Positions 19,620-26,297 of a stretch of 29,141 bases of DNA are shown here, in pieces (within the stretch, counting starts at the first letter, position 1; each line of letters starts with the position of its first letter). The notes beneath the pieces were generated by a model. It was given only the letters and a program-made list of their open reading frames with translations, did not search any database and was not told where the DNA came from. The DNA is taken from positions 5,784-34,924 of the IMG/VR virus record IMGVR_UViG_3300037847_001466; one strand, given 5' to 3'. Position numbers and translations under genes: made by a program. This DNA comes from a virus.

Positions 19620-19648
19620 TTGACTATGTGCAAGTCTTGCACTATGTC
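19620..19648 (+). promoter_or_regulatory. Rightward promoter with operator palindrome in the spacer
   Basis: TTGACT (19620-19625) is followed after 17 bases by TATGTC (19643-19648), a good -35 with a weak -10, placed 32 bases before the first gene. The spacer contains a perfect inverted repeat, GTGCAAG-T-CTTGCAC at 19628-19642. A protein bound there would block RNA polymerase. The likely ligand is a helix-turn-helix protein such as the one coded at 21961, which is the last gene of the same operon; that link is inference. Confidence 0.6.
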
Positions 19649-19656
19649 TTATGTAT

Positions 19657-19672
19657 CACTAGCAAAAAGGAA
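19657..19672 (+). repeat. CTAGC leader, copy 1
   Basis: CACTAGCAAAAAGGAA ends 8 bases before the ATG at 19681. The AAAAAGGAA part can serve as the ribosome site; the CACTAGC part is not explained by that. Confidence 0.8.
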
Positions 19673-19680
19673 ACAAACAA

Positions 19681-19851
19681 ATGAATGATTCAGCTACAAT
19701 CTTTGCAATGGTTCTCGGCATGGCTTTACAACTTGCCAGCCTTGGCCTTGCAGTCTCAGGCTTTCACCATGTTGAAGGCCTTTATATCCCTGCAACTCTT
19801 GGCATTACCGGAACTGTTTTGTTTTGGTGGCCTATGATTTGCGCCAAATAA
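19681..19851 (+). CDS. Small membrane protein of unknown function
   Basis: This is a 56-residue protein with an ATG start 8 bases after the repeated leader, and it is the first gene behind the rightward promoter. It has two hydrophobic segments: about residues 5-26 (ATIFAMVLGMALQLASLGLA) and 34-53 (LYIPATLGITGTVLFWW), joined by a short GFHHVEG loop. It is probably a two-pass inner-membrane protein. No family recognised. As the first early gene it could act on the host membrane or exclude other phages, but nothing in the sequence proves this. Confidence 0.7.
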   Translation: MNDSATIFAMVLGMALQLASLGLAVSGFHHVEGLYIPATLGITGTVLFWWPMICAK

Positions 19852-19854
19852 TCA

Positions 19855-19870
19855 CACTAGCAAAAAGGAA
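19855..19870 (+). repeat. CTAGC leader, copy 2
   Basis: CACTAGCAAAAAGGAA is identical over 16 bases to copy 1 and has the same 8-base distance to the ATG at 19879. It begins 4 bases after the previous stop. Confidence 0.8.
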
Positions 19871-19878
19871 CTAAGCAA

Positions 19879-20181
19879 ATGAAAATGGATTATATCGAAT
19901 CATTACCTAACCATGACATTGCATTGGATGTTTATTCAACTCTTATGCATTACAAAGTTGACAAGGGGATTGATCACATTGATGTGATGGCTGTTATTGA
20001 ATACCTAAAGCACCATTACGAAACAGATCAAAACCCTGTCGCTGTATCAATACGCAATCAAAACAAAATTTGTGACAATGCCTATTGTGAAGCAATGGCA
20101 ACCCACAAAGCCCCGCACAATGAGCAATATTGCTCTGAGTGCATACATGAGCATGTTTATGATGATTGCCAACCAATATAA
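19879..20181 (+). CDS. Unknown small protein with a possible zinc-binding C-terminus
   Basis: This is a 100-residue protein. Residues 1-50 are helical and acidic. The C-terminal half has Cys65, Cys70, Cys85, Cys88 and Cys97 (CDNAYC, then YCSEC) with several histidines (76, 80, 90, 92), spaced as in a zinc-binding knuckle. That suggests a nucleic-acid- or protein-binding role. No family recognised. The start is fixed by the leader; an internal ATG two codons later is possible. Confidence 0.65.
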   Translation: MKMDYIESLPNHDIALDVYSTLMHYKVDKGIDHIDVMAVIEYLKHHYETDQNPVAVSIRNQNKICDNAYCEAMATHKAPHNEQYCSECIHEHVYDDCQPI

Positions 20182-20196
20182 ACAACTAATCAATCA

Positions 20197-20211
20197 CACT
20201 AGCAAAAGGAA
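20197..20211 (+). repeat. CTAGC leader, copy 3
   Basis: CACTAGCAAAAGGAA has one A fewer than copies 1 and 2 but again ends 8 bases before the ATG at 20220. Confidence 0.8.
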
Positions 20212-20219
20212 ATAAGATA

Positions 20220-20675
20220 ATGAGACAAGTTAGCAAAAACACAGTGTTCGCATTTTTAAATCGTACCGTAAAACGCACTGGCAGAAATGACGCTGTTACA
20301 CGCACAGGATTTGTTGAGACTAACAACAAAACAGGCGAAACAAAAAACACAGAATGTTTTTTCATGACGCTACACGACAACCCTATTGCAAGCTTGCAGC
20401 CATTACACAAAACAAAATGGCACAAACGCGCAATACATTTGACTCTTGCAGGTTGGAACACAGTAACAACACGCGAACGATTAAATGCTTTATTGCGTAT
20501 TTTGGGCAAAAGTAACTTGCACATTGTACAACATAAGCACCAAGCTTGCCTAGCCACATTTGCTGGCAACAAAAGACTCACAACACCATTAAATGTGAAT
20601 CGCTGGTATGATGTGGAAGAATTGCAGCACATGGCGAACTTTCTACACCACAAAGAAACTAACAAGGCAGCATAA
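20220..20675 (+). CDS. Unknown basic protein
   Basis: This is a 151-residue protein, rich in Lys, Arg, His and Thr, with no membrane segment or signal peptide. Visible landmarks are an N-terminal KNTVFAFLNRTVKRTGRND, a Thr/Asn-rich middle and a C-terminal RWYDVEELQHMANFLHH helix. The high basic content fits nucleic-acid binding, but I do not recognise a family. A hairpin and about 100 non-coding bases follow before the next leader. Confidence 0.6.
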   Translation: MRQVSKNTVFAFLNRTVKRTGRNDAVTRTGFVETNNKTGETKNTECFFMTLHDNPIASLQPLHKTKWHKRAIHLTLAGWNTVTTRERLNALLRILGKSNLHIVQHKHQACLATFAGNKRLTTPLNVNRWYDVEELQHMANFLHHKETNKAA

Positions 20676-20685
20676 AACAACAACA

Positions 20686-20710
20686 GGCGGCACGCATTGC
20701 GCGTGCTGCC
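20686..20710 (+). terminator. Intercistronic GC-rich hairpin
   Basis: GGCGGCACGC and GCGTGCTGCC form a 10-pair stem (one G-T) with loop ATTGC, 10 bases after the stop at 20675. There is no T-run, so it is more likely an mRNA-stabilising or attenuating structure than a full terminator. A second small stem, GGGC-AAAT-GCCC, lies at 20744-20755. Confidence 0.55.
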
Positions 20711-20759
20711 CCATGATTGCATGGCAATGATTGTGCAATGATGGGGCAAATGCCCACAA

Positions 20760-20776
20760 CACTAGCAAGAAAAAGG
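20760..20776 (+). repeat. CTAGC leader, copy 4
   Basis: CACTAGCAAGAAAAAGG keeps the first nine bases of the motif, with a longer A/G stretch before the AGG. The ATG follows at 20785. Confidence 0.75.
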
Positions 20777-20784
20777 TTAAACAA

Positions 20785-21006
20785 ATGGCAAAATATAACG
20801 GTTACACAAGTTGGAATGCTTGGAATGTATCGCTTTGGATAAATAACGATGAATACCTTTACAACACGGCAAGGGAAACGGTGAAGCGTTTTGGATATGT
20901 GCGAGGCTTGAAGGTTCTCGTCGCGCGATGGGAAGGTGACAGAACACCGGATGGTGCAATTTATAACCGCACTGGAATAAAGCAAGCAATACAGGAGATA
21001 GTTTGA
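20785..21006 (+). CDS. Small conserved-type phage protein (NGYTSWNAWNVSLWI motif)
   Basis: This is a 73-residue protein. The ATG at 20785 is set by the leader; a longer in-frame reading would run through the leader itself. The N-terminus YNGYTSWNAWNVSLWINND resembles a widespread small phage family with a Tyr-Asn-Gly-Tyr-x-x-(Tyr/Trp)-x-(Thr/Ala)-Trp-Asn-Val motif, whose function is unknown (a DUF7249-like assignment is tentative). The remainder is a helical, basic domain (ETVKRFGYVRGLKVLVARW). Its stop overlaps the next start (TGATG). Confidence 0.7.
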   Translation: MAKYNGYTSWNAWNVSLWINNDEYLYNTARETVKRFGYVRGLKVLVARWEGDRTPDGAIYNRTGIKQAIQEIV

Positions 21007-21149
21007 TGACAGAGAAACTTATCAACGGTTTTTGCATAATCTTAACAGCGCTTCTAATCATGGGCTGGATAGATTGGCTTTGGCTGTTTGGCTTTGAAAA
21101 CAGCAAATCGTTTACTTGGTGGGCTGTGATGGCTCACTTTGGTAAATAG
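21006..21149 (+). CDS. Small membrane protein of unknown function
   Basis: This is a 47-residue protein. Its ATG overlaps the previous stop by one base, so it depends on coupling and has no leader of its own. Residues 6-29 form a strongly hydrophobic, Trp-rich segment (INGFCIILTALLIMGWIDWL); residues 36-43 (FTWWAVMA) are a shorter hydrophobic patch. It is probably a single-pass membrane peptide. No family recognised. Confidence 0.6.
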   Translation: MTEKLINGFCIILTALLIMGWIDWLWLFGFENSKSFTWWAVMAHFGK

Positions 21150-21161
21150 GCTACCAACCTA

Positions 21162-21189
21162 CCATTGACGGGCTGAAGCCTGTCAGTGG
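21162..21189 (+). terminator. Intercistronic hairpin, possible terminator or attenuator
   Basis: CCATTGACGGGC and GCCTGTCAGTGG form a 12-pair stem (two G-T) with loop TGAA, 12 bases after the stop at 21149. It is followed by GCTTTAAAT, only a weak T tract. It resembles an intrinsic terminator of low efficiency placed inside the operon. Confidence 0.6.
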
Positions 21190-21215
21190 GCTTTAAATCG
21201 GCAGCAATGGCATAA

Positions 21216-21229
21216 CGCTAGCAGAAAGG
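21216..21229 (+). repeat. CTAGC leader, copy 5
   Basis: CGCTAGCAGAAAGG is a diverged copy (A to G before CTAGC, and AGAAAGG after). The ATG is at 21240, 10 bases on. Confidence 0.65.
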
Positions 21230-21239
21230 TAAAAGAGAA

Positions 21240-21425
21240 ATGGCAAAGCAAGGTAAAATTGAAATGCCACTTAACTATTCAATAGAAAATAATAACGATG
21301 GCACTTTTTCGTTATTGCAAGATGGGTTCTTTTTGTTTTGTGGAAAAACAATTGAAGAATGTTTCGACGCTATGACAAAGAATCACACTTGCATGAAATA
21401 CGGCAAGAGCTATTCAAAATTCTAG
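21240..21425 (+). CDS. Unknown small protein
   Basis: This 61-residue protein looks like a small beta-then-helix domain: LNYSIENNNDGTFSLLQDGF gives two strands, followed by FLFCGKTIEECFDAMTKNH. That arrangement recalls small phage inhibitor or accessory proteins, but no family is recognised. There are three cysteines (34, 41, 51). The stop TAG is itself part of the next CTAGC leader. Confidence 0.6.
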   Translation: MAKQGKIEMPLNYSIENNNDGTFSLLQDGFFLFCGKTIEECFDAMTKNHTCMKYGKSYSKF

Positions 21426-21440
21426 CAAAAGAGAGAGGGA
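21422..21440 (+). repeat. CTAGC leader, copy 6
   Basis: CTAGCAAAAGAGAGAGGGA begins with the last coding base and stop codon of the previous gene. The ATG follows at 21450. Confidence 0.7.
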
Positions 21441-21449
21441 AAAAGAGAA

Positions 21450-21623
21450 ATGAAAACCTATGAAATAACTGTGATGGGGACAGTCGAGAGGACTGTGGTT
21501 GTTGAGGCAGATTGCCTTGAGTCAGCAGAAAGCAGCGCTGAAGCTGAATGGTCGAGATTAACCGGCGGTAATATTTTCACAGCCGAAACGGTATCAGCCA
21601 TTGAGAGAGAGGAAAAGCAATGA
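21450..21623 (+). CDS. Unknown small acidic protein (possibly DpnD/PcfM-like)
   Basis: This is a 57-residue acidic protein. MKTYEITVMGTVERTVVVEA forms a beta hairpin, and DCLESAESSAEAEWSRLTGG a helix. That strand-strand-helix layout resembles the small DpnD/PcfM-type domain; the match is by eye and weak. The function of that family is unknown. It ends in ATGA overlapping the next gene. It is easily missed because it is short. Confidence 0.6.
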   Translation: MKTYEITVMGTVERTVVVEADCLESAESSAEAEWSRLTGGNIFTAETVSAIEREEKQ

Positions 21624-21883
21624 TTAACGCAGTGTTTAAATTAAGAGACAAACCCAACACAAATTTAGGTTGGGAATATATCAAGATTATTGATCGGTAT
21701 TGTTATGGCTGGGAAGAAATCCCAGCAAAGGAAACATACCACAAAAAGGCTTGGACAATAAAAAAGTTTACCTATGTCATTTTGGGCTGGGATACAGGCA
21801 AGCCAAAAGACTTGCACCCAATATCTGAAGATGAGATGGAAGACTTATGGATGAATTATGATTTTATTGAAATGGAAAACTAA
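21620..21883 (+). CDS. Unknown protein, aromatic-rich
   Basis: This is an 87-residue protein translationally coupled to the previous gene (ATGA overlap). It is rich in Trp, Tyr and Lys (GWEYIKIIDRYCYGWEEI, AWTIKKFTYVILGW) with an acidic C-terminus (EDEMEDLWMNYDFIEMEN). No membrane span or known motif. The acidic, aromatic tail is reminiscent of small phage proteins that mimic nucleic acid or bind host enzymes, but that is only an impression. Confidence 0.6.
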   Translation: MINAVFKLRDKPNTNLGWEYIKIIDRYCYGWEEIPAKETYHKKAWTIKKFTYVILGWDTGKPKDLHPISEDEMEDLWMNYDFIEMEN

Positions 21884-21885
21884 AA

Positions 21886-21921
21886 GAGAAACCGCCAAAG
21901 CATTGCGCTTTGACGGTTCTC
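21886..21921 (+). terminator. Long intercistronic hairpin with ATTGC loop
   Basis: The arms 21886-21901 and 21907-21921 pair over about 14 positions with one bulge and one mismatch (GAG, AACCG, CAAAGC against GCTTTG, CGGTT, CTC). The loop is ATTGC, the same as the hairpin at 20686. It starts 3 bases after the stop at 21883. There is no T-run, so it is probably a processing or stability element rather than a terminator. Confidence 0.55.
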
Positions 21922-21928
21922 ACATCCT

Positions 21929-21944
21929 ACTAGCAAAGAAGGAA
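21929..21944 (+). repeat. CTAGC leader, copy 7
   Basis: ACTAGCAAAGAAGGAA precedes the repressor-like gene. Here the ATG (21961) is 16 bases away, and a second purine run, AGAAGGGAA, sits closer to the start. Confidence 0.7.
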
Positions 21945-21960
21945 CAGAAGGGAAAATAAC

Positions 21961-22302
21961 ATGGATTCAAAAAAAATCAAGCTTGAACGTCTACAGCTAG
22001 GGATTAGCCAACAAAAGATGGCTGACAGGCTAGGCGTAACAAGGCGAACAATTATCAATTATGAAACCGGGGCAACGCATGTGCCTGATACTGTCACCAA
22101 GTTACACCGATGCCTAAAAGAGAAAGAGCGAATGGAGAAAGAAAAAGAATTGAACAACGATTTAGATTGGCTTGTTGATTCACTTACAGAGTTTGCAGAA
22201 ATTATATCAACCTTAGATATAAAACAATTTAGCAATCAAAAAGACTACGCATATTTAGTCATGCTTACTTGCCAAGAATTTATCAAACAGAGAGGGAGTT
22301 GA
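21961..22302 (+). CDS. Helix-turn-helix transcriptional regulator (XRE/Cro-CI type)
   Basis: This is a 113-residue protein. Residues 5-52 are a classic HTH_3 domain: IKLERLQLGISQQKMADRLG, then the recognition helix VTRRTIINYETG (26-37) and VPDTVTKLHRCL. Residues 55-113 are a charged helix and a hydrophobic C-terminal part that may dimerise. It is the last gene of the first rightward operon, just before an intrinsic terminator, which suggests autoregulation of the promoter at 19620. It lacks the LexA-type autocleavage domain, so it is not an SOS-inducible CI. Confidence 0.85.
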   Translation: MDSKKIKLERLQLGISQQKMADRLGVTRRTIINYETGATHVPDTVTKLHRCLKEKERMEKEKELNNDLDWLVDSLTEFAEIISTLDIKQFSNQKDYAYLVMLTCQEFIKQRGS

Positions 22303-22335
22303 ATTAACGATTAGCAATGCCGCGTGGCATTTCTT

Positions 22336-22370
22336 AAAGCATAGCCTTAACACTTGGCTATGCTTTTTTT
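22336..22370 (+). terminator. Intrinsic terminator of the first rightward operon
   Basis: AAAGCATAGCC and GGCTATGCTTT form a perfect 11-pair stem with loop TTAACACTT, running into TTTTTTT. It lies 34 bases after the regulator stop. A smaller stem, AATGCC-GCGT-GGCATT, precedes it (22317-22332). This is the clearest Rho-independent terminator in the window. Confidence 0.9.
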
Positions 22371-22467
22371 ATTTACAAATTATGTGTTTTGTTTTGCAAT
22401 TCGGTTTGCTCCGGTAATGCATTACTTGGCATTGCTTTAAGTGACGAGCAAGCTCGATTTTATCGAG
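22371..22467. other. Convergent intergenic region with palindromes
   Basis: No gene is visible here. It contains a perfect 12-base palindrome GTAATGCATTAC (22414-22425) and the hairpin CTCGAT-TTT-ATCGAG (22453-22467), which directly abuts the stop of the minus-strand nuclease gene. Read on the plus strand this hairpin is followed by TCAGTTTTTC, so it could be a back-up terminator for rightward transcripts as well as an end for the leftward one. Confidence 0.6.
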
Positions 22468-22872
22468 TCAGTTTTTCTTGTCAACCCCATAAGATTCACG
22501 CACCACTTGAACCCAAGTTGGCAGTGACATTTCTGCAACAAGTCGTGGGTCATAAGAGAAAGAGCGACACGCAGCCATAAGCTGTATGACGCAACGGATT
22601 GGGCGATTGTTAAACTTATAAATGAGAACAGGGAACCTATCGCCGGATGCATCACAAGCTTGCTCCCACCATGCCTGTTTGTATGTTGCGCCAGAAGCAT
22701 AAGCCTTGCACTCTATCGACCAGCCGGGGATTACAATGTCAGCCTCACCTTTCACTTGATATTGAGAGAGGTTGCGCTTTGGTAACTCAGGCAGTGACTC
22801 GCCCAAGTGGTCTTTGATGTAGTTTACAATCTGCCTTTCAAACGCCGCGCCTTTCTGTCTGCTATCTGTCAT
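22468..22872 (-). CDS. PD-(D/E)XK nuclease, Holliday-junction-resolvase-like
   Basis: This is a 134-residue protein. KGAAFERQIVNYI supplies the N-terminal glutamate (Glu12), GEADIVIPGWSIECKAY gives Asp45 and the Glu54-x-Lys56 pair, and KQAWWEQACDASGDRFPVLIYKF is the trailing helix/strand. This is the active-site order of the PD-(D/E)XK fold as found in small phage resolvases and RecB-like nucleases. It would cleave branched or damaged DNA in replication or recombination. It is the last gene of the leftward four-gene island, and its ATG overlaps the preceding gene by 11 bases. Catalytic residues look intact; the exact substrate cannot be told. Confidence 0.75.
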   Translation of the reverse strand: MTDSRQKGAAFERQIVNYIKDHLGESLPELPKRNLSQYQVKGEADIVIPGWSIECKAYASGATYKQAWWEQACDASGDRFPVLIYKFNNRPIRCVIQLMAACRSFSYDPRLVAEMSLPTWVQVVRESYGVDKKN

Positions 22873-23017
22873 TTTGTTTTCGTTTCAAAACGCTCTTGGC
22901 TGTATTTTTTTTGCGTATCACTCGCCCAAGATTATCAAACTTTACATCGACCTCTGGAACCTTCAAAGCCTCTTTGATTTCCTCTACAGTAGGAACTTTA
23001 TAACTACTTTGATTCAT
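22862..23017 (-). CDS. Unknown 51-residue basic protein
   Basis: I chose the ATG at 23017, with GGAG about 10 bases upstream inside the zinc-ribbon gene. Longer in-frame readings would overlap that gene much more. The N-terminal half (VPTVEEIKEALKVPEVDVKF) is a short helix plus strand, and the C-terminal half is basic (GRVIRKKNTAKSVLKRK). It overlaps both neighbours by 11-14 bases, which argues it is real and coupled. No family recognised. Confidence 0.55.
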   Translation of the reverse strand: MNQSSYKVPTVEEIKEALKVPEVDVKFDNLGRVIRKKNTAKSVLKRKQNDR

Positions 23018-23267
23018 AATGATGCACTCCATATTGTAATTTACAAACAGGGCATACACTTGCCCCGTCGAGAAATGTCTCACACCTCAAACACATATCA
23101 GCAGCAGCAAGTTGCGCTATCTTTTCATCACCCTCTGGTAAAAGCACACCAGTCGCGCTGCAAAGTTCGCAATCCTCTGGCACTACTTCAGTTGGGTCAA
23201 AGTAATCTTTGACGTACCGAAAACCTTTACCTTTGCATTTGTAGCATTGTATCTGTGAAAAAATCAT
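23004..23267 (-). CDS. Small double zinc-ribbon protein
   Basis: This 87-residue protein starts from the ATG at 23267, which has GAGG 8 bases upstream; another in-frame ATG is 18 bases earlier. It carries four Cys-x-x-Cys pairs: Cys8/11 and Cys33/36 in DnaJ-like settings (CYKCKGKGF, CELCSATGV), then Cys59/62 (CLRC) and Cys72/75 (CPVC). Two zinc ions could thus be bound. Such proteins often bind nucleic acid or act as adaptors. The gene overlaps the Cro-like gene by 41 bases. Confidence 0.65.
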   Translation of the reverse strand: MIFSQIQCYKCKGKGFRYVKDYFDPTEVVPEDCELCSATGVLLPEGDEKIAQLAAADMCLRCETFLDGASVCPVCKLQYGVHHYESK

Positions 23268-23436
23268 TTGGCTTAACCTCACCATTACTTGCTAAGAGAA
23301 TCCTACGCATTGTCTCAGGGTTTGGATACCGTCTGCCAGCTATAAAATGATTGATGGCTGACCGGGATATACCACAACGCCGAGCAAACCTAGCTTGGCT
23401 TATCTTGTTGATATGTATATATTCTTTCAGTGTCAT
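23227..23436 (-). CDS. Cro-like helix-turn-helix regulator
   Basis: This is a 69-residue protein from the ATG at 23436 (GAGA 6 bases upstream); a longer reading would cross the promoter. Residues about 11-35 (ISQARFARRCGISRSAINHF) are a helix-turn-helix with recognition helix SRSAINHFIAG, in the size range of lambda and P22 Cro. It is the first gene of the leftward island and lies next to a palindrome shared by both divergent promoters. It probably represses its own operon and the rightward recombination operon. Confidence 0.8.
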   Translation of the reverse strand: MTLKEYIHINKISQARFARRCGISRSAINHFIAGRRYPNPETMRRILLASNGEVKPNDFFTDTMLQMQR

Positions 23437-23457
23437 AATTTTTCTCAACTTTACCTG

Positions 23458-23493
23458 TTGACCGATTGTAGACATTACGTTACCGTAACACAA
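23458..23493. promoter_or_regulatory. Divergent overlapping promoters with GTTACCGTAAC operator
   Basis: Leftward: TTGTGT (complement of 23488-23493), a 17-base spacer, and TACAAT (complement of 23465-23470), a good match to the sigma-70 consensus. Rightward: TTGACC (23458-23463), a 17-base spacer, and TACCGT (23481-23486), with a weak -10. The perfect inverted repeat GTTAC-C-GTAAC (23479-23489) overlaps the leftward spacer and the rightward -10. A bound regulator would block both, as in a Cro-type switch. The Cro-like protein coded at 23436 is the natural candidate. Confidence 0.6.
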
Positions 23494-23505
23494 CTAGCAA
23501 TGAGG
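23492..23505 (+). repeat. CTAGC leader, copy 8
   Basis: AACTAGCAATGAGG precedes the exonuclease-like gene at 23512. The core ACTAGCAA is kept, although this gene belongs to a different transcription unit from copies 1-7. Confidence 0.65.
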
Positions 23506-23511
23506 TCAAGC

Positions 23512-24384
23512 ATGGATATTTACAAACACGATAGCGCAAGTGGCGCAACATCACCAAAGTATGAAATGATATTTAAGTTGTGGCTCAGAGCGACAACTAA
23601 TCTCAATCCTGTATTCCCAGATAACGCAGCTATGCTAACAGGACGCACCGTTGAGATGGGTGTACGCCGAGTTGAGGGGCTAGAAAACTTTGACCCTGAT
23701 AAGGGTAAGCAAGATGGTATGTCAATTGCTGAAGCCACTCGTGATATGATGGCAGACTACGATGAGTATGTGCCAAGGGATTGGGATGAGGGCAAAGACA
23801 AAGAGGAACATGAAGCTTTTAGAGAACACTTGCCTGACATGCTTGGCAACGCGCTTGAAGGCTTGAAAGCGTGGCAAAACAAACACGGACTTAACACTGT
23901 AAATGGTGAGCATGTAACTTGGCACTCTGTGCCAGAACTTGATGTTCGTATTATGATGTTCAGAGACTTTTATGGCGGTAACGTATTGTGCGATCTCAAG
24001 TGTAAGATGCCGCAACGCAACCCTCTAAAAAAAGATGGCACTCGCACATGGCGAATACCAAAGCCAGATTTGCAGCCCAGCGAAAACAATATCAAACAGA
24101 TGTCAGTGTATTGGAGAGCGACAGGCCAAAAGCCATCGTTGCTACAAGTCACTGCGTCTGGCTTTCACATTTGGGATGAGGATAATTGCGAACTGCTACA
24201 AGAGCAACATCTTGAACAAGTCTATCAGGATGTGAAGCGTAGCTGGACTACCACACAAAATTTAATTCGTGTCGCTAATGGTAATTGGCACACACTAGCT
24301 GGCCTAGTCACCCCGGATTTTACAGAAATCGCAAGGAAGCATGGGCCACACATACTTAAACTAGCAAGGGAGTTTTGGAAATGA
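23512..24384 (+). CDS. PD-(D/E)XK exonuclease-like protein
   Basis: This 290-residue protein starts from the ATG at 23512 behind the divergent promoter. GRTVEMGVRRVEG (44-56) resembles the first helix of RecB/lambda-exonuclease-type folds, with Glu48 as the candidate acidic residue. ELDVRI (142-147) supplies Asp144, and VLCDLKCK (158-165) the Asp161-x-Lys163 pair. The C-terminal half contains the usual helix IKQMSVYWRATGQKPSLLQV of PD-(D/E)XK exonucleases. Its role is probably 5'-3' DNA end resection for recombination. The annealing-protein-like gene lies three genes downstream in the same operon. Confidence 0.75.
   Translation: MDIYKHDSASGATSPKYEMIFKLWLRATTNLNPVFPDNAAMLTGRTVEMGVRRVEGLENFDPDKGKQDGMSIAEATRDMMADYDEYVPRDWDEGKDKEEHEAFREHLPDMLGNALEGLKAWQNKHGLNTVNGEHVTWHSVPELDVRIMMFRDFYGGNVLCDLKCKMPQRNPLKKDGTRTWRIPKPDLQPSENNIKQMSVYWRATGQKPSLLQVTASGFHIWDEDNCELLQEQHLEQVYQDVKRSWTTTQNLIRVANGNWHTLAGLVTPDFTEIARKHGPHILKLAREFWK
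24360..24372 (+). repeat. CTAGC leader, copy 9 (inside coding sequence)
   Basis: ACTAGCAAGGGAG lies in the last codons of the exonuclease-like gene, encoding Leu-Ala-Arg-Glu, and precedes the ATG at 24381 by 8 bases. Because it is coding, its match to the leader could be partly chance. Confidence 0.5.
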
Positions 24385-24737
24385 TTACAGTGCAAGATTC
24401 AGACGATATGTTTGATTTATTCTATACACCGCCACACAAACTGGTCAGGCGAGATGACCCAGTGACAAGCCATGAGGCCGCTGAGAGTGTGGATACCAGC
24501 CACATGGAGCAAGTTGTTCTTGAAGCCATACAAGACTTTGGCGCAGACGGTTGTATCTCAGACCAAGTTTTAGCAAAGCTATCGCATCACGGTTACAGCA
24601 CAGTGACCGCAAGGTACAAGCAGCTAAAAGAGAAAGGGCTGGTGAAGGTTGATGACCGCAAGCGTAAGGGACGGTCAGGCCGTCGTCAGTTGGTGATGTG
24701 GGCAACAGAATTTTATGTGGAGCAAAAGGATGGATGA
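24381..24737 (+). CDS. Winged-helix-like phage protein
   Basis: This is a 118-residue protein. Its ATG overlaps the previous stop (ATGA). Residues about 23-36 (RRDDPVTSHEAAESV) form a motif common in phage proteins of this type. Residues 41-105 fit a winged helix: EQVVLEAIQDFGADGCISDQ, then the helix-turn-helix LAKLSHHGYSTVTARYKQLKEKGLVKV and a basic wing RKRKGRSGRRQLVMW. It is likely to bind DNA. Its position between exonuclease and annealing-type genes suggests a replication or recombination role, or operon control. The family is known to me only as hypothetical. Confidence 0.7.
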   Translation: MITVQDSDDMFDLFYTPPHKLVRRDDPVTSHEAAESVDTSHMEQVVLEAIQDFGADGCISDQVLAKLSHHGYSTVTARYKQLKEKGLVKVDDRKRKGRSGRRQLVMWATEFYVEQKDG

Positions 24738-24870
24738 AGAAACACAACAGCGCATTGACATGCTGCAAATGAAAGTCGATGAGTTAGAGGCAAAAGTGTT
24801 AGAACAAATGGTAGCCTTTACTACAGCTATGAAGCTGATTGCAGACTTGATGGAGAAAAAAGATGGCTAG
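24730..24870 (+). CDS. 46-residue coiled-coil protein
   Basis: This is a short frame from an ATG inside the end of the winged-helix gene (8-base overlap, AAAAGG upstream). The whole protein (MDEETQQRIDMLQMKVDELE, then AKVLEQMVAFTTAMKLIADL) is one amphipathic helix with Leu/Met/Val at heptad positions. It ends by overlapping the start of the next gene by 8 bases. The tight overlaps at both ends argue for a real gene. It is likely a small oligomerising partner; no family is recognised. Confidence 0.6.
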   Translation: MDEETQQRIDMLQMKVDELEAKVLEQMVAFTTAMKLIADLMEKKDG

Positions 24871-25534
24871 AGGAACCTTGCCGCCAAACCTAATACAAGC
24901 TTTGGAAGAAGTTGGCATGAGTACGGAGATGGATAAAGGTGCTGTATGGAACTGTCGAGGCACCCCGGTTGTTCTTCACAAAGCCTTGGAGCGTATAGCT
25001 CATAAAAAAGGCATACGCTTTGACCCACCGATGGTGATAGAAACCAGTGCTGAACAAAACATCGCAGTGATGTGCGTCACGGGATACCTTGGTGAGTTTA
25101 GCGAATGGTCTATAGGTGAAAGCACACCGCGAAACACCACTAATAATTATCCTTTTGCTATGGCAGAGAAACGTGCAAAAGACAGGGTAATACTAAAGCT
25201 TATAGGTGTTGCTGGCTTTGTTTATTCAGAAGAAGAAGCTGATGAATTCAAACATAGCAAACCTGACCAAGTTGCACAAAGCCAACAGGTAGAAAGCAAA
25301 GCCGATAACAGCGGCTACAACCCAGAGGTGCAAAAGGCAAAGGACTTTTGGCGTGAGGTTGATTTGAAATGTAGCCCAGCAAACATGAAGACATCTTCTG
25401 ACTTTAATGCTTTAGTATCCCCAGACTATTTTGTTGGGCGTATGAAAGAAACAAAAGAAAATGCCCCAGAAATCTTTGAAGAAATCGACAAAACCATAGC
25501 GCAAGCTGCGCGTAGATTAAAATTGGAGTGGTAA
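24863..25534 (+). CDS. Putative single-strand annealing protein (Rad52/Erf-like)
   Basis: This 223-residue protein has GGAG 6 bases before its ATG. The core, about residues 36-128, runs VVLHKALERIAHKKGIRF, a strand pair (NIAVMCVTGYLGEFSEWSIG), an NYPFAMAEKRAKDRVILKLIG helix and a SEEEAD closing turn. That resembles Rad52/Erf-type annealing proteins, in which an A-x-KRA-x-R helix precedes an acidic SEEE. The C-terminal 70 residues (EVQKAKDFWREVDLKC onward) are a separate helical domain. With the exonuclease-like gene upstream it would make a Red-type recombination pair. The assignment rests on pattern and context; a search is needed to confirm. Confidence 0.5.
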   Translation: MARGTLPPNLIQALEEVGMSTEMDKGAVWNCRGTPVVLHKALERIAHKKGIRFDPPMVIETSAEQNIAVMCVTGYLGEFSEWSIGESTPRNTTNNYPFAMAEKRAKDRVILKLIGVAGFVYSEEEADEFKHSKPDQVAQSQQVESKADNSGYNPEVQKAKDFWREVDLKCSPANMKTSSDFNALVSPDYFVGRMKETKENAPEIFEEIDKTIAQAARRLKLEW

Positions 25535-25535
25535 T

Positions 25536-25898
25536 ATGCCTACAAAACAAAGAAAGAAAGTGTTTGGTTTTAAGTTGTTCCCAAACAACGATAAGAAATC
25601 AGATCGTGCGCCTGACTATGGCAATGCAAATGTGCAATGCTATGACCCTGTTATGAAACAAATTGCACCCATATCCCTATCACCTGACAATAAGTATGAG
25701 GTGTCGGCATGGACTGAGGCAGATGGGTCAATCGGGGTTAGCTTAAATCAAGTTATCATGGTGGAGTCAGCAGACAACCTTGCTGATGATATTTCACAAG
25801 CTGGCTTCAAACCGATTGCCGAGGCCATCGAAACCAAACATTACCCAGAAGGGCGGCAGGAAGCCCCACAACGGCCTCAAGTACAAAAGCGGTGGTAA
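25536..25898 (+). CDS. Unknown protein in the recombination operon
   Basis: This is a 120-residue protein with GGAG 8 bases before the ATG, 1 base after the previous stop. It has a basic N-terminus (PTKQRKKVFGFKLFPNNDKK), a beta-looking middle (QCYDPVMKQIAPISLS, YEVSAWTEADGSIGVSLNQV) and a Pro/Gln/Arg-rich tail (RQEAPQRPQVQKRW). A small beta core with a flexible tail recalls single-strand DNA-binding proteins, and the operon makes that attractive. No signature residues prove it. Confidence 0.6.
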   Translation: MPTKQRKKVFGFKLFPNNDKKSDRAPDYGNANVQCYDPVMKQIAPISLSPDNKYEVSAWTEADGSIGVSLNQVIMVESADNLADDISQAGFKPIAEAIETKHYPEGRQEAPQRPQVQKRW

Positions 25899-26131
25899 GG
25901 AAGCGGAAACGTGACAAAGCCTCTCAGAGGGCGTTTAAAGAGCCAGCAACAGACTATGTGGTATGTGAGGGGTGCCAAAAATCTATGCCGTTGGTGACAG
26001 GATATTGGATAATAAATGGATTAGGGGAGTTGTTGTGTCATGGCACAAACGGTTGTTCAGTTAGAAAACAAAGTTCTCATAGAGGAAGCGAGGGTAGTAG
26101 CGAGGGACTATTACACAGCCCTGATACTTGA
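25892..26131 (+). CDS. Unknown small protein with Cys-x-x-Cys zinc-knuckle-like motif (GTG start)
   Basis: This is a 79-residue frame starting with GTG inside the previous gene's last codons. The first half is basic (RKRKRDKASQRAFKEP). Residues about 24-54 (VVCEGCQKSMPLVTGYWIIN, then LLCHGTNGC) have four cysteines, Cys-x-x-Cys and Cys-x5-Cys, spaced as a zinc ribbon. The last 30 residues are low-complexity Ser/Gly/His and overlap the next gene for 92 bases in another frame. The useful part of the protein may therefore end near residue 58, and this overlap makes the exact gene limits uncertain. Confidence 0.5.
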   Translation: MVRKRKRDKASQRAFKEPATDYVVCEGCQKSMPLVTGYWIINGLGELLCHGTNGCSVRKQSSHRGSEGSSEGLLHSPDT

Positions 26132-26297
26132 AGGTTGGGGCTTGTACCGAATACTCAAAGAGCATGGTTACGAGCCTCACAGAGCAAAATATATTATACC
26201 CCTAAATGGAGAAGAGAAAGGATGGTATACAAGTGAGCCACACGTTATAGAATGTCTGGCTCACTATATATCAAACGGTGGAGAACCTTTGTACTAA
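26040..26297 (+). CDS. Unknown small protein, last gene of the rightward operon
   Basis: This is an 85-residue protein. The only ATG is at 26040, with GGGGAG about 12 bases upstream. It is well-formed helical sequence (LENKVLIEEARVVARDYYTA, LEGWGLYRILKEHGYEPHRA) followed by YTSEPHVIECLAHYIS. No family recognised. It overlaps the zinc-knuckle-like gene by 92 bases, and its stop interlocks with the stop of the convergent minus-strand gene (4 shared bases). Confidence 0.6.
   Translation: MAQTVVQLENKVLIEEARVVARDYYTALILEGWGLYRILKEHGYEPHRAKYIIPLNGEEKGWYTSEPHVIECLAHYISNGGEPLY

Follow-up and report, generated by a model that had tools for sequence, protein, structure and literature searches.

Nine copies of a short leader tag were found ahead of early genes in the window (the whole 29,141-nucleotide stretch of phage DNA that was analysed). 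The core of the tag, ACTAGCAA, is probably the invariant portion of a standard 5' leader, specific to these phages, that works at the mRNA level on early cistrons initiating translation without the help of an upstream ribosome. All nine copies lie on the early strand in one orientation (Table 1), at the sites where an earlier sequence-only reading had placed them; copies 1 and 2 indeed share an identical stretch of 16 bases, and the first three copies each stop 8 nt short of the ATG, as that reading had also noted. In copies 5 and 6 the sequence is GCTAGCAG and TCTAGCAA, respectively, and the core is therefore (W)(M)ACTAGCAA followed by a variable spacer to the Shine-Dalgarno (SD) sequence. 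The phage itself is an HTVC010P/Greip-like podovirus of a little-known, marine-type group.

Table 1. Leader copies, probable promoters and leader RNA structures in the window (genes are named by the position of their ATG; distances run from the start of CTAG to the ATG)
Feature	Position	Strand	CTAG start	Gene	CTAG to ATG (nt)	Sequence, basis or remark
Probable early promoter	19620..19648	+				TTGACT-17-TATGTC; from sequence; predicted transcription start about 19655
Leader copy 1	19657..19672	+	19659	19681	22	CACTAGCAAAAAGGAA
Leader copy 2	19855..19870	+	19857	19879	22	CACTAGCAAAAAGGAA; stop codon of preceding gene immediately 5'
Leader copy 3	20197..20211	+	20199	20220 (phrog_554)	21	CACTAGCAAAAGGAA
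Three consecutive RNA hairpins	20686..20755	+				directly 5' of copy 4; folding z -3.5
Leader copy 4	20760..20776	+	20762	20785 (phrog_871)	23	CACTAGCAAGAAAAAGG
Two-hairpin leader RNA, family B	21162..21214	+				directly 5' of copy 5; conserved
Leader copy 5	21217..21229	+	21218	21240	22	GCTAGCAGAAAGG
Leader copy 6	21421..21440	+	21422	21450	28	TCTAGCAAAAGAGAGAGGG; TAG stop of preceding gene inside copy
Long-stem hairpin	21886..21921	+				5' of copy 7, kept in relatives; folding z -4.5
Leader copy 7	21929..21943	+	21930	21961 (HTH regulator)	31	ACTAGCAAAGAAGGA
Probable promoter, second early unit	23458..23486	+				TTGACC-17-TACCGT; from sequence; predicted start about 23493
Leader copy 8	23493..23505	+	23494	23512 (nuclease-like, by synteny with Greip)	18	ACTAGCAATGAGG
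Leader copy 9	24360..24373	+	24361	24381	20	ACTAGCAAGGGAG

The window contains 11 instances of the heptamer ACTAGCA where 4.4 were expected, a count reached in none of 100 shuffled sequences, and CACTAGCAN(1-6)AGGA was found 3 times against 0.05 expected. Seven of the ACTAGCA occurrences are early leaders and four fall within late coding sequence of the minus strand, where they read ACTAGCAG instead of ACTAGCAA. CTAG itself is not a rare tetramer here, as had been supposed (86 found, 79.5 expected).

In many related phages the tag was observed ahead of non-homologous genes. Unbiased k-mer counting returned ACTAGCAA as the top start-associated 8-mer of these relatives, ahead of the SD words, and it stands upstream of 56 of their 319 non-redundant starts (2.6 expected). 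Its non-redundant occurrences are concentrated in leaders (77, with 22 elsewhere), whereas all of its one-base variants together gave 41 in leaders and 184 elsewhere (p = 1e-24) and its reverse complement gave 1 and 95. No leader-form tag was found on the late strand of the whole relatives or in the backwards control. An alignment of 54 tag copies shows about ten conserved positions and nothing conserved farther upstream.

The tag is also specific to its phages. The sister clade has a different leader, AAAGGATCA (40:9 there, 0:1 in the clade of the tag), orthologous genes in other phages are preceded by the leaders of those phages, and the cultured HTVC010P-type pelagiphages and the Methylophilales phage Venkman do not have the tag in leader form. 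A host leader motif was considered and rejected, as 289 alphaproteobacterial genomes gave 16 matches against 19 in the control, with the true host possibly outside this set. The host search by TerL in genome contigs matched only a distant Hyphomicrobiaceae MAG contig.

Within the clade of the relatives, the tag is present at 60 of 104 independent starts but at only 7 of 52 coupled starts (p = 7e-8), so that about 40% of the independent starts are without it. In the window, copy 9 is the sole copy ahead of an overlapping (coupled) gene and lies within the 3' end of the preceding coding sequence. As an example of this dependence, the nuclease gene (93-95% identical) has the tag where it is promoter-proximal, in the window and in relative L150, and lacks it where it is coupled, in L012 and L013. 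Gene 21006 is coupled and tagless in the window, and its counterpart in L008 has a predicted hammerhead plus the tag. The tag marks the early genes that initiate translation independently. The proposal of a class mark for early genes at the RNA level was borne out by the single strand, the single orientation, the restriction to the early region and the presence before non-homologous genes in many relatives, but the tag covers a smaller class than all early genes.

The tag is located 14-36 nt from the ATG, upstream of a separate SD. Tag and SD are separated by anything from 1 to 18 nt while the distance from SD to ATG mostly stays near 9-13 nt, and an extended SD pairing with the 16S tail was rejected on this range. 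Ahead of some orthologues of gene 21961 the tag stands 45-62 nt before the ATG and other sequence lies between, which fits an element that is read separately better than one in direct contact with the initiating ribosome. The tag stretch is accessible, with 0.63 unpaired against 0.40 upstream. We suggest that the tag functions at the mRNA level as a start-associated element 5' of a separate SD, where it would most likely help a phage factor or the small ribosomal subunit to load. A possible but clearly less probable explanation is that it is the target of an RNA-binding protein or a small RNA, encoded by phage or host, through which early translation would be turned off (or on) as a class, much as with T4 RegA or RegB. 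The RNA-level placement, the single orientation, the flexible distance to the SD and the clade-specific sequence all agree with such a target, and dependence on coupling would also be expected if control were needed at independent starts only. However, no candidate protein or small RNA was found, and a class switch that coupled genes evade would be unusual.

The predicted transcription start of the first early promoter places copy 1 at the extreme 5' end of the mRNA; the -10 box of this promoter is weak and was missed by one promoter analysis. In the relatives, clusters of TTGAC were observed 34-42 nt upstream of the tags (16 against 2.3 expected). A promoter for a phage RNA polymerase was rejected, since no polymerase was found among the large late proteins (the 865-aa protein gave no match in this search) and nothing is conserved 5' of the tag. 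The positions at probable promoters, where copies lie at about +1 to +8, would also suit asymmetric repressor sites in the DNA, that is, candidate stoperators halting transcription of the early region as in mycobacteriophage L5. The L5 stoperators are repressor sites with a role in transcription whose placement is independent of the SD and start codon (general background and PMC3203893). The tag resembles them as an asymmetric repeat of single orientation in phage intergenic regions, and two HTH proteins are encoded in the early region. We nevertheless consider this explanation unlikely because the tag, unlike the L5 sites, is tied to an SD and a start codon, is rare outside leaders and is lost from a coupled gene although the DNA remains in the early unit.

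The leader that we favour would be modular, with its 5' side formed by a transcription start, a preceding stop codon or, in the relatives, a hammerhead or other hairpin. Unusually stable hairpins were observed upstream of 45% of the tags. An Rfam search of the early region of the window returned no known RNA family. The family B leader RNA has the consensus ...GUCAGUGGGCUUUAAAUCGsCAGCAAUGGC, and a pistol-like reading of it, raised by a hairpin-loop pairing, failed to be established. At the place of the three hairpins ahead of gene 20785, the L074 orthologue has a predicted type II hammerhead.

A total of 22 distinct predicted hammerheads (CUGANGA, GAAA and NUH core plus three stems) were found directly 5' of early leaders in the relatives, and none in the backwards control. 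Rfam matches were obtained to Hammerhead_1 (26.4 bits) and Hammerhead_II (30.0 bits), below the gathering scores of 34 and 37. In the leaders of L015, L010, L008 and L074 the predicted cut falls after GUC. The window's own leaders have no hammerhead core and their hairpins are of other kinds. In the relatives, the hammerhead or hairpin would cleave the polycistronic early mRNA and cap it; a link to mRNA processing is likely there, with the upstream hammerhead rather than CTAGC as the putative cutter. That the tag itself is a site of mRNA cutting or 5'-end stability is improbable. Tags do lie close to where 5' ends are predicted, at probable transcription starts and hammerhead products, but the upstream ribozyme accounts for cutting in the relatives and many tags come straight after a stop codon without any structure. 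Least probable, and already disfavoured, is a favourable ribosome-binding site that has no separate function and was dispersed through recombination or gene duplication, or else a longer pairing with the tail of the 16S rRNA: early genes are swapped as cassettes and an annealing-type protein is present (by synteny with Greip), but the 54 different contexts have only about ten conserved bases in common, leaders contain far fewer single-base variants and the tag-SD spacing is too variable for continuous pairing.

The predicted hammerheads precede start codons by about 30 nt and, among the wider phages, refolding through a covarying pairing between tail and core is possible for 29 of the 30 type II copies that have a UCAG tail. 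We did not find such putative refolding of the 3' product described in the literature compared on phage hammerheads. Together, these two features give phage ribozymes, whose purpose is so far open, a concrete and checkable role, and the frequent position of the relatives' ribozymes directly before the tag provides a setting for testing their action. More speculatively, and with considerable doubt, the leader code word may be private to each lineage, with ACTAGCAA in the present phages, AAAGGATCA in their sister clade and AACTACGGGAG and AACTTTAAAAAGGA in others. Its reader would be a dedicated factor of the phage or a ribosome that the phage has altered, and the word would be coupled to self-cutting ribozymes whose products refold to a 5' hairpin, converting one long early transcript into uniform, insulated single-gene mRNAs.

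Type I and type II hammerheads between phage genes, in tandem arrays, were reported by Perreault et al. 2011 (PMC3088659), who already proposed that long phage transcripts are cut into operon- or single-gene mRNAs and described one hammerhead 13 nt ahead of a start codon. Unlike those arrays, the hammerheads in the relatives hold one fixed place in the leader, directly before the tag and ribosome-binding site. Their order of ribozyme, hairpin and ribosome-binding site is that of the engineered RiboJ-type insulators, as these are outlined where Lou et al. 2012 is cited in PMC6993053, but the leaders are natural, recur along an operon and have a phage-specific tag after the ribozyme.

The closest parallel in placement is the SAS of cluster K mycobacteriophages, known since 2011 with no function assigned (PMC3203893). 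Like the SAS, the tag is a short asymmetric repeat of single orientation upstream of start codons, confined to the non-structural gene region, kept before different genes and phage-specific. Both mostly precede genes with an intergenic gap upstream, although the gaps here are often shorter than the 50 bp of the SAS report. About half of the SAS have an additional inverted-repeat element (ESAS) directly 5', comparable to the share of tags with a stable upstream hairpin, but the ESAS repeats share sequence and have little support as mRNA hairpins (PMC3203893), whereas the hairpins upstream of the tag are diverse and, in the relatives, include the predicted hammerheads. The SAS consensus GGGATAGGAGCCC contains the SD, 3-7 nt from the start, whereas the tag has a separate SD. 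By this comparison, the tag appears to work like the SAS while standing outside that family. It would be a second, unrelated case with a sharp consensus and with natural experiments, in that one gene occurs both tagged and untagged, which makes the question of function directly testable.

The tag also resembles the T7 gene 10 epsilon enhancer (UUAACUUUA, PMC8748333) as a fixed block of a phage leader immediately 5' of the SD. It does not contain UUAACUUUA, is not restricted to A and U and occurs many times in each genome. The T7 g10 enhancer is unnecessary in the alphaproteobacterium Agrobacterium fabrum (PMC8748333) and therefore lends no precedent to a generic 'enhancer' reading of the tag. 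A repeated leader, AACTTTAAAAAGGA, was observed in Venkman, and it does resemble the T7 epsilon enhancer, with an approximate match to UUAACUUUA upstream of the SD.

All nine copies of the leader tag (consensus core ACTAGCAA) that the sequence-only reading had placed before early genes were found in the window, ahead of the ATGs at 19681, 19879, 20220, 20785, 21240, 21450, 21961, 23512 and 24381. All early genes that have a start of their own carry the tag, and it is missing from the translationally coupled genes 21006, 21620, 24730, 24863 and 25536 (named by start coordinate), the exception being 24381, which is coupled and tagged. In the clade as a whole, the tag precedes 60 of 104 independent starts versus 7 of 52 coupled ones (p = 7e-8), counts that depend on a crude gene calling. 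Orthologues with and without the tag provide a natural experiment on its placement. The nuclease gene 23512 has a probable promoter and the tag in the window and in the related contig L150; its orthologues in L012 and L013 (93% identical) are untagged, and there the stop codon of an inserted upstream gene adjoins the nuclease ATG. Gene 21006, coupled and bare in the window, has a predicted hammerhead and the tag in L008; gene 20785 is preceded by three hairpins and the tag in the window and by a predicted hammerhead and the same tag in L074. These comparisons show that the tag belongs to the position of an independent cistron rather than to particular genes.

Nearly 200 loci of relatives were collected by searches with the nuclease, ORF 20220 and the large and small terminases. 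When 54 non-redundant copies were aligned, the shared core, (W)(M)ACTAGCAA, spanned about ten bases, with a purine-rich Shine-Dalgarno (SD) sequence at variable distance on its 3' side and no further conserved sequence upstream. By unbiased counting, ACTAGCAA was the top 8-mer before start codons in the window's clade, beating even the SD words, and occurred at 56 of 319 starts versus 2.6 expected. The enrichment that the sequence-only reading had proposed to look for in related phages and the host is found in these leaders and not in 289 alphaproteobacterial genomes, which gave 16 tag matches versus 19 in the control. A stricter non-redundant count placed ACTAGCAA 77 times in leaders and 22 times elsewhere, versus 41 and 184 for all 24 one-base variants pooled and 1 and 95 for its reverse complement; many of the copies elsewhere resemble leaders with a longer spacer or at a contig end. 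In whole records the tag-SD-ATG pattern is confined to one strand and is absent from the backwards control. Within the window, ACTAGCA was observed 11 times versus 4.4 expected from shuffling, and four of the 11 are not early leaders but lie within late coding sequence, reading ACTAGCAG. CTAG, which had been supposed to be a rare tetramer, is not rare in the window.

Three contexts were observed upstream of the tag, namely a probable promoter, the previous gene's stop codon only a few bases away, or a stable hairpin. TTGAC was seen 34-42 nt ahead of 16 tags versus 2.3 expected (p = 3e-10), a spacing by which promoter-proximal tags would probably fall at roughly positions +1 to +8 of the transcript. 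A folding-stability score (z) below -1.5 was found in the 58 nt upstream of 45% of 88 tags versus 16% of coding controls (p = 2e-6), and the predicted openness is 0.63 for the tag versus 0.40 for the upstream sequence. Neither the hairpins before gene 20785 nor the leader RNA that we call family B has an Rfam match. Family B is conserved in L008, L010, L011, L012, L014, L015, L019, L020, L021, L023, L074, L146 and L152, occupies the place held by hammerheads in relatives and contains a possible loop pairing; it is a candidate for a new structured or self-cutting RNA. In addition, at 22309-22331 a tag copy (ATTAGCAA) is directly followed by a small hairpin (TGCC-GCG-TGGCA), its counterparts being CTAGCAA plus a small hairpin (L010:3557, L011:3396, L012:1450 and L020:6432). 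Copies of this type lie between the early unit's last gene and the terminator, with no gene downstream.

Coordinates of early units and leader features in the window and in related loci (L-numbers)
Feature	Location	Strand	Remarks
Early unit 1	19681-22302	plus	
Early unit 2	23512-26297	plus	
Probable promoter	19620-19648		fits TTGAC spacing; weak -10 box
Probable promoter	23458-23486		fits TTGAC spacing; weak -10 box
Three consecutive hairpins before gene 20785	20686-20755		z -3.5; hammerhead at that place in L074
Leader RNA family B	21162-21214		hairpin, then UUUAAAUCGC, then small hairpin before tag
Predicted hammerheads	L008:172, L010:1409, L013:806, L015:3972, L019:371, L021:1122 and 2098; L070, L074, L091, L093 (two), L096, L104, L105; L123, L127, L128, L144, L146, L174, L195		

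A search requiring the complete core and all three stems predicted 22 distinct hammerheads, of types I and II, in HTVC010P-like relatives; it gave none in the window and none when the relatives' sequences were read backwards. No contig contains more than two of them, and they immediately precede early-gene leaders, with CTAGC following after 3-11 nt or, in sister clades, the RBS coming shortly afterwards; Rfam matched two of them below its gathering scores. A short hairpin, for example UGUC-AUAA-GACA or UGCC-AUAG-GGCA, opens most type I products, and in its arrangement the predicted ribozyme-hairpin leader is similar to engineered RiboJ insulators (PMC6993053). When the type II pattern was applied to a broader set of viral contigs, the matches listed included 120 stem-verified copies. 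In 88 of these, an RBS and a start codon lie no more than 120 nt away (median 31.5 nt); some phages with several of these listed copies repeat their own leader. At least seven type II hammerheads lie within 8.5 kb of the viral contig L211, all of them followed by a start codon. Perreault et al. 2011 (PMC3088659) had already suggested that phage transcripts are cut into short mRNAs; a fixed hammerhead position ahead of a repeated leader takes that proposal further.

Of 98 non-redundant type II hammerheads from relatives and viral contigs (L204 onwards, among the matches listed), 30 have N'UCAG within the bases that follow stem II; a control stretch contains it in 5 of 98. N' complements the variable core base N of CUGANGA in 29 of the 30 (U-A 10, C-G 19; Fisher p = 5e-8). 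This covariation suggests a refolded state excluding the active ribozyme, because CUGAN/N'UCAG pairing would use core bases; the pairing could act after cleavage, by locking the 3' product, or before it, by holding cleavage back. Loop I was rejected as its explanation (0/44).

On this sequence evidence, we lean towards the tag being an RNA-level start-associated element that would act on early mRNAs to support independent translation initiation. The tag lies about 45-62 nt from the start in some 21961 orthologues (L019, L146, L070, L154, L012 and L013), where a hairpin or insert separates the tag from the SD, and this distance favours separate recognition over direct ribosome contact. The main rival, that a regulatory protein or small RNA targets these leaders as a class, appears rather improbable; stoperators acting on DNA, cleavage inside the tag itself and a neutrally spread leader are less likely explanations. 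The closest known kind is the start-associated sequence (SAS) of cluster K mycobacteriophages (PMC3203893), which the tag resembles in where it sits, in its orientation, in the class of genes it precedes and in being associated with gaps and upstream structures. The tag is not an SAS member because its consensus and relation to the SD differ.

The window covers positions 5784-34924 of a viral record of 34,924 bases. Its connector shares about 56-59% identity, and its terminase about 49-51%, with the counterparts in most Pelagibacter phages of the HTVC010P group; its genes are arranged in the same order as in phage Greip EXVC021P. The minus strand carries the late genes (head, tail, lysis), and a minus-strand block with an HTH gene separates the two early units. 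Since its G+C is about 43% versus 32% in pelagiphages, the host is probably a bacterium other than Pelagibacter.

Elsewhere, ORF 20220 orthologues have different leaders, in several cases one repeated in their own phage. The sister-clade leader is AAAGGATCA (L112, L121, L123, L127, L128, L144 and others), found there 40 times in leaders versus 9 elsewhere, and in the window's clade 0 and 1 times, respectively; first genes of the sister clade often have both blocks. Unrelated phages L049 and L053 carry a AACTACGGGAG leader. In the unrelated Methylophilales phage Venkman (L065), the leader AACTTTAAAAAGGA is like the T7 gene 10 enhancer, and AACTTTAAAAAGGAAA, common to several of its genes, is close to that enhancer plus SD.
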